This document shows positions 1-14,791 of a stretch of DNA of 43,442 nt, piece after piece; positions within the stretch are counted from its first letter, which is position 1, and the number at the start of each line of letters is the position of its first letter. Source of the DNA: Chloroflexota bacterium (GTDB lineage Bacteria > Chloroflexota > Limnocylindria > Limnocylindrales > CSP1-4); assembly GCA_025935415.1 (NCBI GenBank), contig JAICVI010000004.1, positions 1 to 43,442 on the forward strand, written 5' to 3'. The position numbers and the translations under genes are program-made. The notes beneath the pieces are model-generated. The model did no database searches and had not been told where the DNA came from. It was given only the letters and a program-made list of their open reading frames with translations.

Positions 1-3000
1 CGCCGCCTGGCCGCCCGACAGCGCCCGCAGCGCGATCGTGACGGGGCCGCCGGAGAGCTCGACGGTGCCGGTCGTGATCCCGGCCTCGGACGGGGGCTGC
101 TCGCGCAGGACGCGGTCGGCGAGGGTCTCACGGGCCACGGCGGCGAGGGACGGCTCGACCTCCGCGGGCAGCCCCGCGACCCACAGCTCGATCCGTGCGT
201 CGAGGTCGAGCCCGGCGTCCTTGCGCAGGTCCTGGATGGCCCGCTGGAGCTCCCGGGCATCGCCCTCCGCGCGCAGCTCCGGCGTGAGCTGCGTGTCGAT
301 CACCACAACGAGGCCCTCGTCATGGGCGACGGCCGTGCCAGGCCTGGGTGTCGCCAGGATCTCGACCTCGTCGGGGGCGAGCGTCGCGCCACCGAGCGAC
401 ACGGAGCCGTCGGGCTGGATCTCGAAGGCGCCGTCTCGTGCGGCGGCCATGACCGCCGGGATCCCGGCGCCGAGGCGCTTGCCGATCTTCGGCAGGAGCG
501 GCCGGACACGCCGCTCGACGAGCTCGGAGTCGTCGCCGATGACCTCGACGGCCTTGACGTTGAGCTCGTCCGCGATCAGGGCGAGCAGCTCTTGCCCGAC
601 CTCGATCCCCCGCTCCGGGATCGCCAGCCAGGCCCGCGCCAGCGGCTGCCGGACCCGCAGCCCCGCTTGCGAGCGAAGGGTTCGCGCGAGCTCGACGGCG
701 CGCCGCGCAATCGCCATCGCCGCCTCGAGGCCCGTGTCGCGGAACGGCGCCATCTCCGCGGCCGGCCAGCTCGTGAGATGGACGCTGTCCGGCACCGCGC
801 CGGCCGCGCTGACCTCGACCATGAGGTTCTGGTAGATGTCCTCGGTCAGGAAGGGCAGCAGCGGCGCGAGGGTCCGGGCGAGGCTCACCAGGACGGCGTG
901 GAGGGTCGCGAACGCGGCATCTCGATCCGCAGGCTCCGCCGAAGCGCGCATCCGATCACGGGAGCGTCGCAGGTACCACGTCGAGAGGTCATCGATGAAG
1001 GCGCGAATGACGCGGGTCGCTCCGAGCGCGTCGTAGTCCGCGAGCCGGGCGCCCGCGTCCTCCGCGACCCCGGCGGCGCGCGACAGGATCCAGCGATCCA
1101 GCGCGGACCAGGAAGCGGCCCCGGCCATTGTCTCGTCGATGCCGCGCTCCGGCCTCCAGCCGGCAAGGCGCGCGTACGTCACGAAGAAGGCGTAGACGTT
1201 CCAGAGCACGAGCAGCTCGCGCCGCGCCTCGTCCGCGGCGTGCCAGCCGAACAGGATGTTGTCCTCCGGCCGAGCCGACGTGTACATCCAGCGCATGACG
1301 TCGACGCCCATTCGCTCGGCCGCCTCGTCGAACTCGATCGAGTTGCCCCAGCTCTTGTGCATCGGCCGGCCGTCCTCGCCGAAGAGCGTGGCGTAGCCGA
1401 AGATCGTCTTGAACGGTGGCTCGCGCCGGAGGACCGTCGACATCGCGAGCATCGCGTAGAACCAGTTCCGGAACTGGCCGGGGAAGCTCTCGGTGATGAA
1501 GTCCGCCGGGAACCACTTCTCCCAGAACTCCCTGTCCTCCCGGAAGTGCAGCGTCGAGAACGGCACGATCCCGGCGTCCAGCCAGGGGTTGCCGACGTCC
1601 GGGATTCGCGTCACCGGCTCGCCGCAACCGTGGCAGCGCAGCGTGACCTCGTCCACGTAGGGACGGTGGGGCGTATGGCCCTTGAACTTCTCCCAGCCGT
1701 CGAGGGCGCGCTCCTCGAGCTCCTCCACCCCACCGACGACGTCGAAGGTGCCGCAGTTCCTGCAGTCGTAGATCGGGAGCGCCAGGCCCCAGTAGCGCTT
1801 CTTCGAGATCATCCAGTCGTGCATGTTCGTGAGCCAGTCGAGCTCACGCTCGTACCCGAACCCGGGGATCCACCGGATCTGGTCGACCACGTCCATGATC
1901 TGGTAGCGGAGGCTCGCGTCCTTCTCCGCCGGCGTGACCTCGGTCCGGGGCTTGTCGTAGACGGGGCCCATCGAGATGAACCACTCGTCAACGAGTCGGA
2001 AGAGCAGCGGCGTTCCGCAGCGCCAGCAGTGCGGGTAGCGGTGGTTGTAGGCCTCCAGGTGGTAGAAGAACCCGCGTCGCTCGAGGTCGTCGACGATCTC
2101 GTCCGCGACCTCCGGGGCGGCCTTGCCCGAGAGCCAGTCGAAGCCCGCGTAGTAGCGCCCGTCCTCGTCGATCGGGCCGATGACCGGTAGGCCGAGCGAC
2201 TTCCCGAGCTGGTAGTCCTCCGCGCCCGCGCCGGGCGCGATGTGGACGATGCCGGTGCCCTCGTCTTCGCCGACCTCGGTCCAGGGCACGACGCGGTGCA
2301 CGTACGGGGTCGCGGGCTCCTCCCGCGTTCCCTCGGCAAACGCCTTCTGAACTGCTGGCAGCGCGTCGAAGGGGCCTTCGTACCGCCACCCGACGAGCTC
2401 CGAGCCCTGCTTCTCCTCGAGGACCTTGAATGGCCCCTGCACGGCGCGCCTGACGACGCCCTTCCCGACCCAGAAGGTCCCATCGGCCTGCTCGACCCGC
2501 AGGTAGGTGAGATCCGCCCCGACCGCCGCGGCAACATTGGCAGCGAGCGTCCACGGGGTCGTCGTCCAGACGAGCAGCGCTTCTCCCGGCCGGTCGACCA
2601 GCGGGAATCGCACGGTCAGCCCGGGGTCCTCGCGGTCGGCGTAGCCCTCGGTCATCTCGTGCTGGCTGATCCCGGTGCCGCAGCGCGGGCACCACGGCAT
2701 CGAGTCGTGGCCCTTGTAGATCCAGCCGCGCCGGTGGCACTCCTTGATGAAGCCCCAGATCAGGTCGTTGTTCTCGTTGGAGAAGGTGAAGTACGAGCCG
2801 CCGACATCGGGCATGCCGAGGCGCCCGACGAGCATCTCAACGGTGTCCGTGACGGGGCCGTCCGGCCCCTGGATGGTCGTGACCTGCTGGGGGTCCGCGG
2901 CGAGGAGGTCGCGGAGGCGCCGGAGCTCATCGGGATCGTTCCAGTTCATCCACATGCCGAGGCGGATCGACTGCTCCGTCTGGCGCGCGGCGTAGGTCAG

Positions 3001-3372
3001 CACCCGCTGCTTGCACAGCGACACGAACTCGGCGATGCCGTAGGCCTCGATGTCGCGCTTGCTCTTGAAGCCGAGGTCCCGCTCGACGTTGACCTCGACC
3101 CAGAGGCCCTGGCAGTCGAAGCCGTTCTGCCAGCGCTGGTCCTCGCCGAGCATGGCGTGATAGCGCTGGAACACGTCCTTGTACGTCCGGCCCCAGGCGT
3201 GGTGCACGCCCATGGGGTTGTTGGCCGTGATCGGTCCGTCGAGGAAGCTCCAGTGGGGCCCGCCCGCGTTCTGCGCGCGCAGGCGCGCGAAGGTCGAGCG
3301 CTCCTGCCACTGCCGCAGGAGGCCGTGCTCCTTCGCGACGAGGTCAGGGCGCGTCGAAACGGGTTGGAACAT
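1..3372 (-). CDS. ileS: Isoleucyl-tRNA synthetase, C-terminus truncated by window edge
   Basis: Open minus frame from ATG at 3372 to the window edge (absent from the ORF track because it has no stop in the window). Reads MFQPVSTRPDLVAKEHGLLRQWQERSTFARLRA...GPITANNPMGVHHAWGRTYKDVFQRY...NGFDCQGLWVEV...PMHKSWGNSIEFDEAAERMGVDVMRWMYTSARPEDNILFGW, i.e. class I IleRS with anticodon-binding domain. Confidence 0.95.
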   Translation of the reverse strand, partial: MFQPVSTRPDLVAKEHGLLRQWQERSTFARLRAQNAGGPHWSFLDGPITANNPMGVHHAWGRTYKDVFQRYHAMLGEDQRWQNGFDCQGLWVEVNVERDLGFKSKRDIEAYGIAEFVSLCKQRVLTYAARQTEQSIRLGMWMNWNDPDELRRLRDLLAADPQQVTTIQGPDGPVTDTVEMLVGRLGMPDVGGSYFTFSNENNDLIWGFIKECHRRGWIYKGHDSMPWCPRCGTGISQHEMTEGYADREDPGLTVRFPLVDRPGEALLVWTTTPWTLAANVAAAVGADLTYLRVEQADGTFWVGKGVVRRAVQGPFKVLEEKQGSELVGWRYEGPFDALPAVQKAFAEGTREEPATPYVHRVVPWTEVGEDEGTGIVHIAPGAGAEDYQLGKSLGLPVIGPIDEDGRYYAGFDWLSGKAAPEVADEIVDDLERRGFFYHLEAYNHRYPHCWRCGTPLLFRLVDEWFISMGPVYDKPRTEVTPAEKDASLRYQIMDVVDQIRWIPGFGYERELDWLTNMHDWMISKKRYWGLALPIYDCRNCGTFDVVGGVEELEERALDGWEKFKGHTPHRPYVDEVTLRCHGCGEPVTRIPDVGNPWLDAGIVPFSTLHFREDREFWEKWFPADFITESFPGQFRNWFYAMLAMSTVLRREPPFKTIFGYATLFGEDGRPMHKSWGNSIEFDEAAERMGVDVMRWMYTSARPEDNILFGWHAADEARRELLVLWNVYAFFVTYARLAGWRPERGIDETMAGAASWSALDRWILSRAAGVAEDAGARLADYDALGATRVIRAFIDDLSTWYLRRSRDRMRASAEPADRDAAFATLHAVLVSLARTLAPLLPFLTEDIYQNLMVEVSAAGAVPDSVHLTSWPAAEMAPFRDTGLEAAMAIARRAVELARTLRSQAGLRVRQPLARAWLAIPERGIEVGQELLALIADELNVKAVEVIGDDSELVERRVRPLLPKIGKRLGAGIPAVMAAARDGAFEIQPDGSVSLGGATLAPDEVEILATPRPGTAVAHDEGLVVVIDTQLTPELRAEGDARELQRAIQDLRKDAGLDLDARIELWVAGLPAEVEPSLAAVARETLADRVLREQPPSEAGITTGTVELSGGPVTIALRALSGGQAA

Positions 3373-3393
3373 GGGGCCGCTATCCTAGCCGCG
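3373..3393. promoter_or_regulatory. Candidate bidirectional, near-leaderless promoter between ileS and the LCP gene
   Basis: Only 21 bp separate the two divergent ATGs. TATCCT on + (3381-3386) and TAGGAT on - (3387-3382) both fit TANNNT and overlap. Confidence 0.45.
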
Positions 3394-5169
3394 ATGCAGG
3401 CGGGCCACGACATTCCGGTGCGTGGCCGCTCGCCATTCGTGGCGGCCTTCCTGTCGCTCCTCTTCCCCGGCCTCGGGCACGTCTATCTCGGCGCCTACCG
3501 GCGCGGGGTCGGGATCGCGGCCCCGATCGTCCTCGCGATGGCCCTCGCGGGCGGCTTCGCCGTCCGGATGGATGCCTTCGCCCTTGCCGGCCTCGCCGTC
3601 CAGGACTGGTTCCAGATCGGCGTCTTCGTCGTCAACCTCGTGCTGCTGGTCTACCGGGCCTGGGCGATCGTGGACGCCTGGTCGATCGCCCGCGCGCTGG
3701 GTGGCCCCGCGGTCTCGCGGGCAGCCGCCCGCCAGGCCGGCGTCATCTCGGTGGCGGGGCTCGCGGGCGTGCTGCTCGTCATGAGCGGGGCGCATCTGGC
3801 CGTCGCGCGCTACGACCTGCTGCTGTCGAACACGTCCGCGTGCATCTTCGACACGGATCCGACCGGCTGCGACTCGGCGCCCTCGCAGGCGCCCGACGAC
3901 GAGACGGCGGCGCCTTCGGACGAGGCGACGCCGGCGGCAACCCTCGGTCCCGACGTCTCCGGCGCGCCCATTCCGCAGTGGGACGGCAAGGAGCGGCTGA
4001 ACATCCTCCTCGTCGGTGTGGACGAGCAGGGTGGCGCCTTCAACACCGACACGATGATCACGGTGTCGATCGACCCGGCCACGAACCAGGTGGTCATGTT
4101 CCAGCTGCCGCGCGACACGGTCGACGTTCCGACGCCGCCGGGCGGCCCGCGCAACTACTACGGGGCCGTCTACCACGGGAAGATCAACAGCTTCGCCGCC
4201 AATGCCAACCGCACGGACTGGTTCCCGGGAAATGTCAAGGCCCACGTCCCGGGCCTGAACGCGCTGAAGGCCATCCTCGGGAACCTCTACGGCCTCGACA
4301 TCAAGTACTACGTCCAGGTCAACTTCGACGGCTTCAAGAAGGTCGTCGACGCCCTCGGCGGCGTGACCATCAACGTCCAGGTGCCCGTGCTCGACGACAA
4401 CTTCCCCTCCGGCTCCGGGCACCGCGAGCGACTCTTCATCCCGGCCGGCGTCCAGCACATGACCGGAGCGGACGCCCTCGCCTACGCGCGCTCGCGCAAG
4501 AGCACGTCCGACTTCGAGCGCGCCGCGCGCCAGCAGCGCGTCATCGTCTCGTTGCGAGAGCAGGCGGACATCGGCCAGGCGATCCAGAACATCGATCCGC
4601 TGGCCGCCGCGATCGGGCAATCCATCCACACGGACATCCCACGCGACATCGTGCCCCAGCTGCTCGGCCTCGCGGACCGCGTCGACACGCGCTCGATCAG
4701 GTCGGTGATCTTCACGCCGCCGTTCTTCCAGACCGAGTGCCTGAACTGCCCGCCGCGCGGCTACATCATCCAGCCGAAGGTCGATCGCATTCGCCAGGCC
4801 GTGACCGATGCCTTCGACGTCGATCCGAACTTCGCCGCCGCGCGCGACGCGCTGCTCGCCGAGGGCGCGGAGGTCTGGGTCCTGAACGGCAGCGGTCGGG
4901 ACGGCGAGGCGGGCAGGCTGTCCGAGTACCTGAGCTACCTCGGGATCGCCGCGAGCGCCCCGAACCAGAAGCCCGACCTGCGCGGCAGCCTGACCACGAC
5001 GATCCGGGCCTACAACGGGGCCGAGACGTCCCTGCCGCTGACGGCCGCGGCGCTGCAGACCGCCTTTGGCGTGACCGTCACGCCCGTGTCCGACCCGTCC
5101 ATCAGGGTCGACTTCGCCGTGATCACGGGCGGCTCGACACCGCAGCTGACTCCCCCGCCAGCCCCCTAG
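3394..5169 (+). CDS. LytR-CpsA-Psr (LCP) family protein with N-terminal multi-TM region and C-terminal LytR_C-like domain
   Basis: Start MQAGHDIPVRGRSPFVAAFLSLLFPGLGHVYLG; LCP core RLNILLVGVDEQGGAFNTDTMITVSIDPATNQVVMFQLPRDT...GALTYARSRKST-type signature (DALAYARSRKSTSDFERAARQQRVI); C-terminus EVWVLNGSGRDGEAGRLSEYLSYLG. Confidence 0.9.
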   Translation: MQAGHDIPVRGRSPFVAAFLSLLFPGLGHVYLGAYRRGVGIAAPIVLAMALAGGFAVRMDAFALAGLAVQDWFQIGVFVVNLVLLVYRAWAIVDAWSIARALGGPAVSRAAARQAGVISVAGLAGVLLVMSGAHLAVARYDLLLSNTSACIFDTDPTGCDSAPSQAPDDETAAPSDEATPAATLGPDVSGAPIPQWDGKERLNILLVGVDEQGGAFNTDTMITVSIDPATNQVVMFQLPRDTVDVPTPPGGPRNYYGAVYHGKINSFAANANRTDWFPGNVKAHVPGLNALKAILGNLYGLDIKYYVQVNFDGFKKVVDALGGVTINVQVPVLDDNFPSGSGHRERLFIPAGVQHMTGADALAYARSRKSTSDFERAARQQRVIVSLREQADIGQAIQNIDPLAAAIGQSIHTDIPRDIVPQLLGLADRVDTRSIRSVIFTPPFFQTECLNCPPRGYIIQPKVDRIRQAVTDAFDVDPNFAAARDALLAEGAEVWVLNGSGRDGEAGRLSEYLSYLGIAASAPNQKPDLRGSLTTTIRAYNGAETSLPLTAAALQTAFGVTVTPVSDPSIRVDFAVITGGSTPQLTPPPAP

Positions 5170-13675: not shown

Positions 13676-14791
13676 TCAATCGAGGCCGGACACCTCGACG
13701 GGACGGCCGAGGAAGGCCTCGAGTCGAGCGATCGCCGTCCCGATGGCGGCGCGCTGTGGGGCGTCGAGCGCGACCTTGGGCTCGACGGCGACGGCGGTCG
13801 ACCCGCCGGCGTCCTTCCAGCTCCAGCCGCCGATGACGAGCCCGTTGCGGACGACCACGTGGGCGAGAATCTCCGCGGCCGCCCGTGCCGGCGGCGGCAG
13901 GTTCGGGTCCATCGCGTCGGATCGATCGCGGAACGCGACCAGCAGCTCGTCGTAGTTGGGCAGGAGGTGCACGCTCGGCGGCTCCGCGCTCGGGAAGAGC
14001 TGCGCCTCCCCGCGATGAACCCAGAACGTCCGCCCGTCGACGGTTTCCCGGGCGAGCGCGGTCCCCGCGGCCTCGAGGGCCGTGCGGGCCTCCCGCAGCG
14101 TCAGTCCCGACCACCACGCGAGATCGACGTCCTGGGCCGGACCATGCCCCTGCACGTACCGCGTCGCCAGCTCGGCGAGGGCCTCGTCTCGCTCCCGTGG
14201 CCGGCTCCGCGGAACCCGCTCGTCCAGGAGCGCGTACGTCTGGCGACGACCGCGGCGTGGCCCGCTGCAGACGACGGCCTCGAGCTCCGCGTCGATCAGC
14301 ATGTAGCCCAACCGGAGCCGCGATCCGAGGACGCCCGCGTCGGCCATCGCCCCTGCAAGCTCCTCCCGAAGCAGCGCCCGGCCACCATGCAGCAGGCCGC
14401 GGATGACATCGCGGCTCCGCTTGCGCGTCTCGAGGTCGAGCTCCAGCTGGCGGTATTGGTAGGCGCTTGCCTGGTGCACCCGCGGCGCGGTCAGCTGGAG
14501 CAGCCAGCGGAGGTCTTCGGCGGCCACGAAATGCCACGTCGGGCGCATGACGTGGGTCCGCAGCAGCTCGCCGGCGTCGAACCGGCGGTCGATGTCCGCG
14601 TCGGTCGCGCCCGCGACGCGCTGCGCGAGCCCCCACTTCGCGCCCGGGTAGTCCTGCGATTGGACGGCGAGCAGGTGGCGGACGGCCTGGGTCGGGTCGT
14701 CGAACCTCTCGCCCGTGAGGCCCTGTGCGCGCAGGCGCCGGGCCGCGATCGCGTTGGCGGAACGCTCGTCCAGTCCGTCGACCGCCGTCAG
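13676..14791 (-). CDS. Winged-helix DNA-binding domain protein (HTH_42/AlkZ-like); start uncertain, annotated ATG at 14548 is internal
   Basis: Family-like N-terminus SANAIAARRLRAQGLTGERFDDPTQAVRHLLAVQSQDYPGAKWGLAQRVAGATDADIDRRFDAGELLRTHVMRPTWHFVAAEDLRWLLQLTAPRV extends upstream of the track's Met. End set at a candidate CTG; could instead be CTG at 14773. Confidence 0.75.
   Translation of the reverse strand: MTAVDGLDERSANAIAARRLRAQGLTGERFDDPTQAVRHLLAVQSQDYPGAKWGLAQRVAGATDADIDRRFDAGELLRTHVMRPTWHFVAAEDLRWLLQLTAPRVHQASAYQYRQLELDLETRKRSRDVIRGLLHGGRALLREELAGAMADAGVLGSRLRLGYMLIDAELEAVVCSGPRRGRRQTYALLDERVPRSRPRERDEALAELATRYVQGHGPAQDVDLAWWSGLTLREARTALEAAGTALARETVDGRTFWVHRGEAQLFPSAEPPSVHLLPNYDELLVAFRDRSDAMDPNLPPPARAAAEILAHVVVRNGLVIGGWSWKDAGGSTAVAVEPKVALDAPQRAAIGTAIARLEAFLGRPVEVSGLD

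Follow-up and report, generated by a model that had tools for sequence, protein, structure and literature searches.

How can two divergent genes be transcribed when only 21 bp lie between their start codons? The window analyzed here, the whole stretch of 43,442 nt, comes from contig C161 of the 2.39-Mb assembly of an uncultured Chloroflexota bacterium. It contains such a spacer, GGGGCCGCTATCCTAGCCGCG, between an ATG at 3372 on the − strand and an ATG at 3394 on the + strand. Within the spacer, TATCCT (+) and TAGGAT (−) overlap in TATCCTA, and TATCCTA and its complement TAGGATA share the key A and T positions. The initial annotation described overlapping −10 motifs in this 21-bp divergent spacer, with 7 nt from TATCCT to the LCP ATG and 9 nt from TAGGAT to the ileS ATG. 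Direct reading of the sequence confirmed the spacer exactly, as well as the placement of both hexamers (Table 1).

Table 1. Coordinates of the spacer, the two putative −10 elements and the flanking genes in the window
Feature	Position	Strand	Basis
Intergenic spacer between both ATGs	3373–3393	.	Sequence read directly
TATCCT, putative −10 of the LCP gene, 7 nt ahead of ATG	3381–3386	+	Genome-wide TANNNT peak at that distance; kept before LCP in relatives
TAGGAT, overlapping putative −10 of ileS, 9 nt ahead of ATG	3382–3387 (read 3387–3382)	−	Invariant equivalent of A3387 in 40 symmetric loci; in most asymmetric loci, ileS with a −10 of its own
TATCCTA, the overlap	3381–3387	both	
LCP-family gene (LytR-CpsA-Psr glycopolymer transferase, includes LytR_C domain); mRNA predicted to be leaderless	3394–5169	+	Pfam, NCBIfam
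ileS, isoleucine–tRNA ligase, runs off contig end, predicted 0–3 nt leader	1–3372	−	Pfam, NCBIfam; conserved start

Both genes were assigned by profile. The + gene belongs to the LCP family (LytR_cpsA_psr, 7e-31; LytR_C), and the − gene is ileS by TIGR00392 (627.5 bits against a cut-off of 621.4). Five codons ahead of the ileS ATG, its reading frame is closed by a TAG stop, which excludes a start further upstream. The ileS N-terminus, MF[RQ]PV...PD.V..EH, begins at the window's ATG codon in most relatives.

Leaderless signals and the LCP side of the spacer

Genome-wide statistics were based on 242 kb of the window's genome (G000) and 400 kb of its congener G003, with genes called by a simple home-made codon-usage caller. 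TANNNT peaks 6–9 nt ahead of the called starts, in 21 of 177 genes in G000 (8, 10, 2 and 1 at 6, 7, 8 and 9 nt, respectively) and in 55 of 341 genes in G003 (28, 12, 9 and 6). The background is flat, with 0–3 genes at each other distance. The commonest hexamers are TACGAT, TAGGAT, TAGCCT and TAGGCT, with TATCCT close behind. Given this peak and these common spellings, the TATCCT located 7 nt before the LCP gene represents a widespread type of signal and is typical of it. Overall, about 15% of called starts carry TANNNT 6–9 nt upstream without a −35 (G000 and G003; window and L033–L072). Leaderless signals are thus frequent in this Chloroflexota group, which comprises relatives of Ca. Limnocylindrales and is represented here by metagenome assemblies. 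TANNNT signals are established as marks of leaderless genes (PMC3160421, PMC12340547), and a 2011 survey reported 4.0–5.7% leaderless genes in four of 12 Chloroflexi genomes (PMC3160421). Compared to those surveyed genomes, the fraction of starts with the signal is higher in this clade.

We compared 61 loci, the window and 60 relatives, in which both genes are present; in one of them, L076, another gene intervenes. TANNNT occurs 6–9 nt ahead of the LCP start in 57 of the 61; hexamer positions 1, 2 and 6 were fixed by the search pattern, which failed in only four loci. Conservation of the shared hexamer had been set beforehand as a check on the initial annotation, and TATCCTA precedes LCP in 40 of the 61 loci with zero substitutions. 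The other LCP elements are TATGATC, TATCATG, TATCATT, TATCATC, TAGCATT, TACCATT, TACGCTC and TATCCTG, and the LCP −10 holds its distance across the order even when the hexamer differs. Judged by this conservation, a leaderless LCP mRNA from TATCCT is well supported.

A further explanation is chance, with TA-containing bases that carry no meaning in the gap between neighboring genes. In the 43-kb window there is one TATCCTA against 0.16 expected, and TATCCTA-N3-9-ATG is found a single time in the 2.39-Mb assembly. CAT-N8-TANNNTA-N6-ATG occurs once among the ten genomes searched, at the window locus. TANNNT-N7-ATG by itself occurs twice in the window against 0.79 expected, which is weak evidence and only slightly above what chance would give. 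Against chance stand the 40 loci without a substitution despite wide variation in spacer length. In the + direction the comparison of relatives already refutes chance, and we assign this explanation a negligible probability.

Conservation extends beyond the hexamer. A 16-mer, TATCCTACCCGCGATG, is present in exactly one copy in each of 31 of the 107 family genomes, while the reversed 16-mer used as a control has zero occurrences in the 107; the window differs from it at one base (TATCCTAGCCGCGATG). The conserved flanks (ACCCGCG) go beyond what a −10 requires, which we counted against a shared promoter. A rival reading is that the block is mainly the binding site of a regulator overlapping the LCP promoter, which would explain the invariance of TATCCTACCCGCG. 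Conservation reaching the discriminator and the upstream GTCC bases would fit such an operator, as would the single copy of the 16-mer per genome. However, asymmetric clades (defined below) vary freely in the middle bases and flanks, whereas TANNNT and its spacing stay, and the spelling is typical of the leaderless −10s of the clade. A partial inverted repeat, CGGGT/ACCCG, was considered as the operator and rejected, as it is missing in the window and several relatives. An operator as the main function is therefore very improbable.

Evidence from the ileS side

The 40 loci with TATCCTA are referred to as symmetric and the other 21 as asymmetric. The gap between TAGGAT and the ileS ATG is 9 nt in the window, 10 in L075, 12 in L073 and 28–138 nt in the other symmetric loci. 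For TANNNT, a gap of 9 nt is among the longest that are usual (1 of 177 and 6 of 341 genes), which counts against use by ileS. A separate minus-strand TANNNT for ileS was found in only two of the 40 symmetric loci (L127 and L076) compared to 19 of the 21 asymmetric loci (Fisher 1e-11 for the raw table, which ignores relatedness). On the tree, four changes of symmetry suffice, giving two to four independent pairs. In a tree-aware pair test nearly all pairings agree or are neutral, and the pairs are too few for significance.

The rate of change also differs between the groups. In symmetric clades, whose LCP-tree length is 12.9, none of the seven positions changed, whereas asymmetric clades, with a length of 6.7, show 8 changes at positions 3–5 and 4 at position 7. 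Position 7 defines the groups, so its rate is partly circular; positions 3–5 are free of this circularity. Among other leaderless promoters, the hexamer is followed by A in just 3 of 76. Together with the invariance in symmetric clades, this rarity is explained most simply by a −10 that is constrained on both strands. On the minus strand, an A lies exactly 7 nt past TAGGAT in 28 of the 40 symmetric loci, well above neighboring positions. Use of TAGGAT by ileS is supported in this comparison by the lack of another −10 in symmetric loci and its presence in most asymmetric ones, as well as by the preferred A at the predicted minus-strand +1 and the invariant, otherwise rare seventh base.

Conservation of a −10 in a single direction would yield much of this pattern. 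TATCCT could drive the leaderless LCP gene alone, with TAGGAT as a by-product and ileS transcribed, with a longer leader, from a promoter inside the LCP gene. However, a minus-strand TANNNT is missing from the first 150 bp of LCP in the window, L073 and L075. The seventh-base A, which the LCP −10 does not need, is invariant in the 40 symmetric loci and drifts where ileS has its own −10, and the preference for A at the minus-strand +1 is likewise at odds with one-way use. We consider one-way transcription from TATCCTA unlikely.

Asymmetric clades differ in what precedes ileS. In a clade of eleven asymmetric loci, TAGACT (TATCCT or TAAACT in two) lies 50–56 nt upstream of ileS. The conserved TAGACT block, mostly after TTCCG, is seen in L092, L095, L105, L106, L113, L115, L119, L123, L142, L146 and L148, and is probably a separate ileS promoter in this clade, which has an asymmetric LCP −10. 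In four loci of a five-locus asymmetric clade, TATCCT occurs 8–10 nt ahead of the ileS ATG. For L090, L093, L097 and L122, the minus-strand TANNNT that was counted is 182–207 nt away, near LCP; by eye, a TTGAC-like or GACGCT-like promoter nearer ileS is the better candidate. No clear TANNNT for ileS was seen in the asymmetric loci L108 and L143. In L076, from the same genus (G014), about 1.5 kb of other coding sequence separates the two genes. There, LCP retains TATCCTA and ileS has its own TACGAT 9 nt ahead of the ATG, in an upstream sequence (TACGATAGCGGCCCC-ATG) nearly equal to that of the window's ileS.

The gap to ileS determines the predicted leader. In the window, the base 7 nt past TAGGAT is C and the next A, at 10, is that of the ileS AUG, so the predicted ileS start is at the AUG or leaves a leader of 1–3 nt. 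In most relatives the ileS leader would be about 20–130 nt. The initial annotation had both mRNAs leaderless or nearly so. For LCP this prediction extends order-wide, while a near-leaderless ileS is confined to the window's small clade, with gaps of 28–138 nt in most relatives. The near-leaderless ileS is, on this distribution, a local derived state, and the leadered form is probably older, because most relatives, near and far, have it. The leadered form often has GAGG just before the ATG and is missing in the window, L073 and L075. L074 keeps it though placed inside the window's small clade, which implies either repeated loss of the leader or an error in the branching at this point. GAGG recurs 4 nt before the ileS ATG in relatives, closer than the peak of Shine-Dalgarno-like words in G000 (6–10 nt), and its role as the ileS Shine-Dalgarno is only suggestive. 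A T-box or other RNA leader element was also considered for the ileS leader, with no Rfam match in 11 loci.

A proposed shared −10 and comparison to known promoters

The initial annotation had placed any −35 elements within the opposite coding sequences, and we found no sign of them there. The best matches in the window were 1/6 and 2/6, and among the 40 symmetric loci only 1 and 0, on the two strands, reached 4/6 at 16–18 nt. Upstream of the 76 leaderless −10s, a −35-like match was present in 6 compared to 3 of 76 at a control distance, which is no real enrichment. A scan with the sigma-70 consensus found nothing. With no sign of a −35 in either gene, the promoters look −10-only.

In this comparison of species, hexamer conservation, the contrast between symmetric and asymmetric loci and the preferred minus-strand A largely back the symmetric bidirectional promoter initially proposed. 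TATCCTA is quite likely a shared −10 that works in both directions with a housekeeping sigma factor and lacks a −35. RNA polymerase would bind these 7 bp facing either way, and its orientation would decide which gene is read. Facing right, it would start on or beside the A of the LCP ATG and produce a leaderless LCP mRNA. Facing left, it would start 7–10 nt past TAGGAT and produce an ileS mRNA with 0–3 nt before the AUG. The two orientations would be mutually exclusive, making this one polymerase-binding site common to both genes. Where transcription really starts, whether translation is leaderless, whether the orientations exclude each other and whether regulation benefits are what we infer from this arrangement; the same holds for competition between the genes and for a possible coupling of ileS to growth of the cell wall. 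We lean, by a modest degree, towards a wider proposal of a doubly leaderless promoter, in which two housekeeping genes would have, as their complete intergenic signal, a single symmetric 7-bp −10 that lacks a −35. In it, ileS and the cell-wall transferase gene would compete for one polymerase site through much of the order, and the arrangement would evolve by one-sided leader loss and, wherever symmetry disappears, by a second promoter.

Bidirectional promoters with a shared pseudo-symmetric −10 were described by Warman, Grainger and colleagues in E. coli and Salmonella, where the commonest spacing between start sites is 18 bp (PMC12825309, PMC10268837). As in those reports, the −10s at our locus overlap in a TANNNTA core with reciprocal key A and T positions, and a −35 would not be needed. 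An A 7 nt past TAGGAT and a canonical + start 7 nt past TATCCT place the predicted starts 18 bp apart; a + start at the LCP AUG instead would place them 19 bp apart. For the window, the predicted distance is about 18–22 bp. Unlike the E. coli and Salmonella promoters as described, the window's two mRNAs are predicted to be leaderless or nearly so, and its whole promoter is the 21-bp gap between start codons. For E. coli, the bidirectional promoters are reported to have low basal activity, with modest interference unless one side is activated (PMC12825309).

The locus also resembles the −10-adjacent leaderless promoters of Deinococcus-Thermus (PMC12340547) and high-GC bacteria (PMC3160421), which have TANNNT with T1, A2 and T6 fixed, 6–7 nt before the start codon, in high-GC genomes. 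It differs from these, as they are reported, in that a single motif is common to two divergent genes. The principles are already known, and are here packed unusually tightly into a real conserved element of compact form. Most knowledge of bidirectional promoters comes from mapping start sites in model bacteria, whereas the evidence for the present one is conservation between species. The comparison suggests that use by two coding genes is what keeps a symmetric −10 symmetric, and it supplies natural cases of lost symmetry in which the partner gene is usually served by a promoter of its own. The 21-bp spacer is a minimal testable unit for the choice of polymerase orientation and for leaderless starts that arise by leader loss.

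Doubly leaderless bidirectional promoters were not found in the open-access literature searched, and doubly leaderless shared promoters look rare even within this clade. In the 642 kb scanned, divergent starts sharing TANNNTA with 5–9 nt on each side are the window locus, its G003 orthologue and one further candidate, against two in reversed sequence that lack open frames. The further candidate is a compact shared −10 between divergent open frames in L033 (G003:C30), near 13930 (CATCCCCTTACTCTAGACCTGTG). A divergent pair in L058 (G000:C6, 3670–3713) has a 44-bp spacer and a separate −10 for each gene, with gaps of 6 and 7 nt. Separate −10s of this kind are the ordinary alternative to a shared −10 in close divergent pairs.
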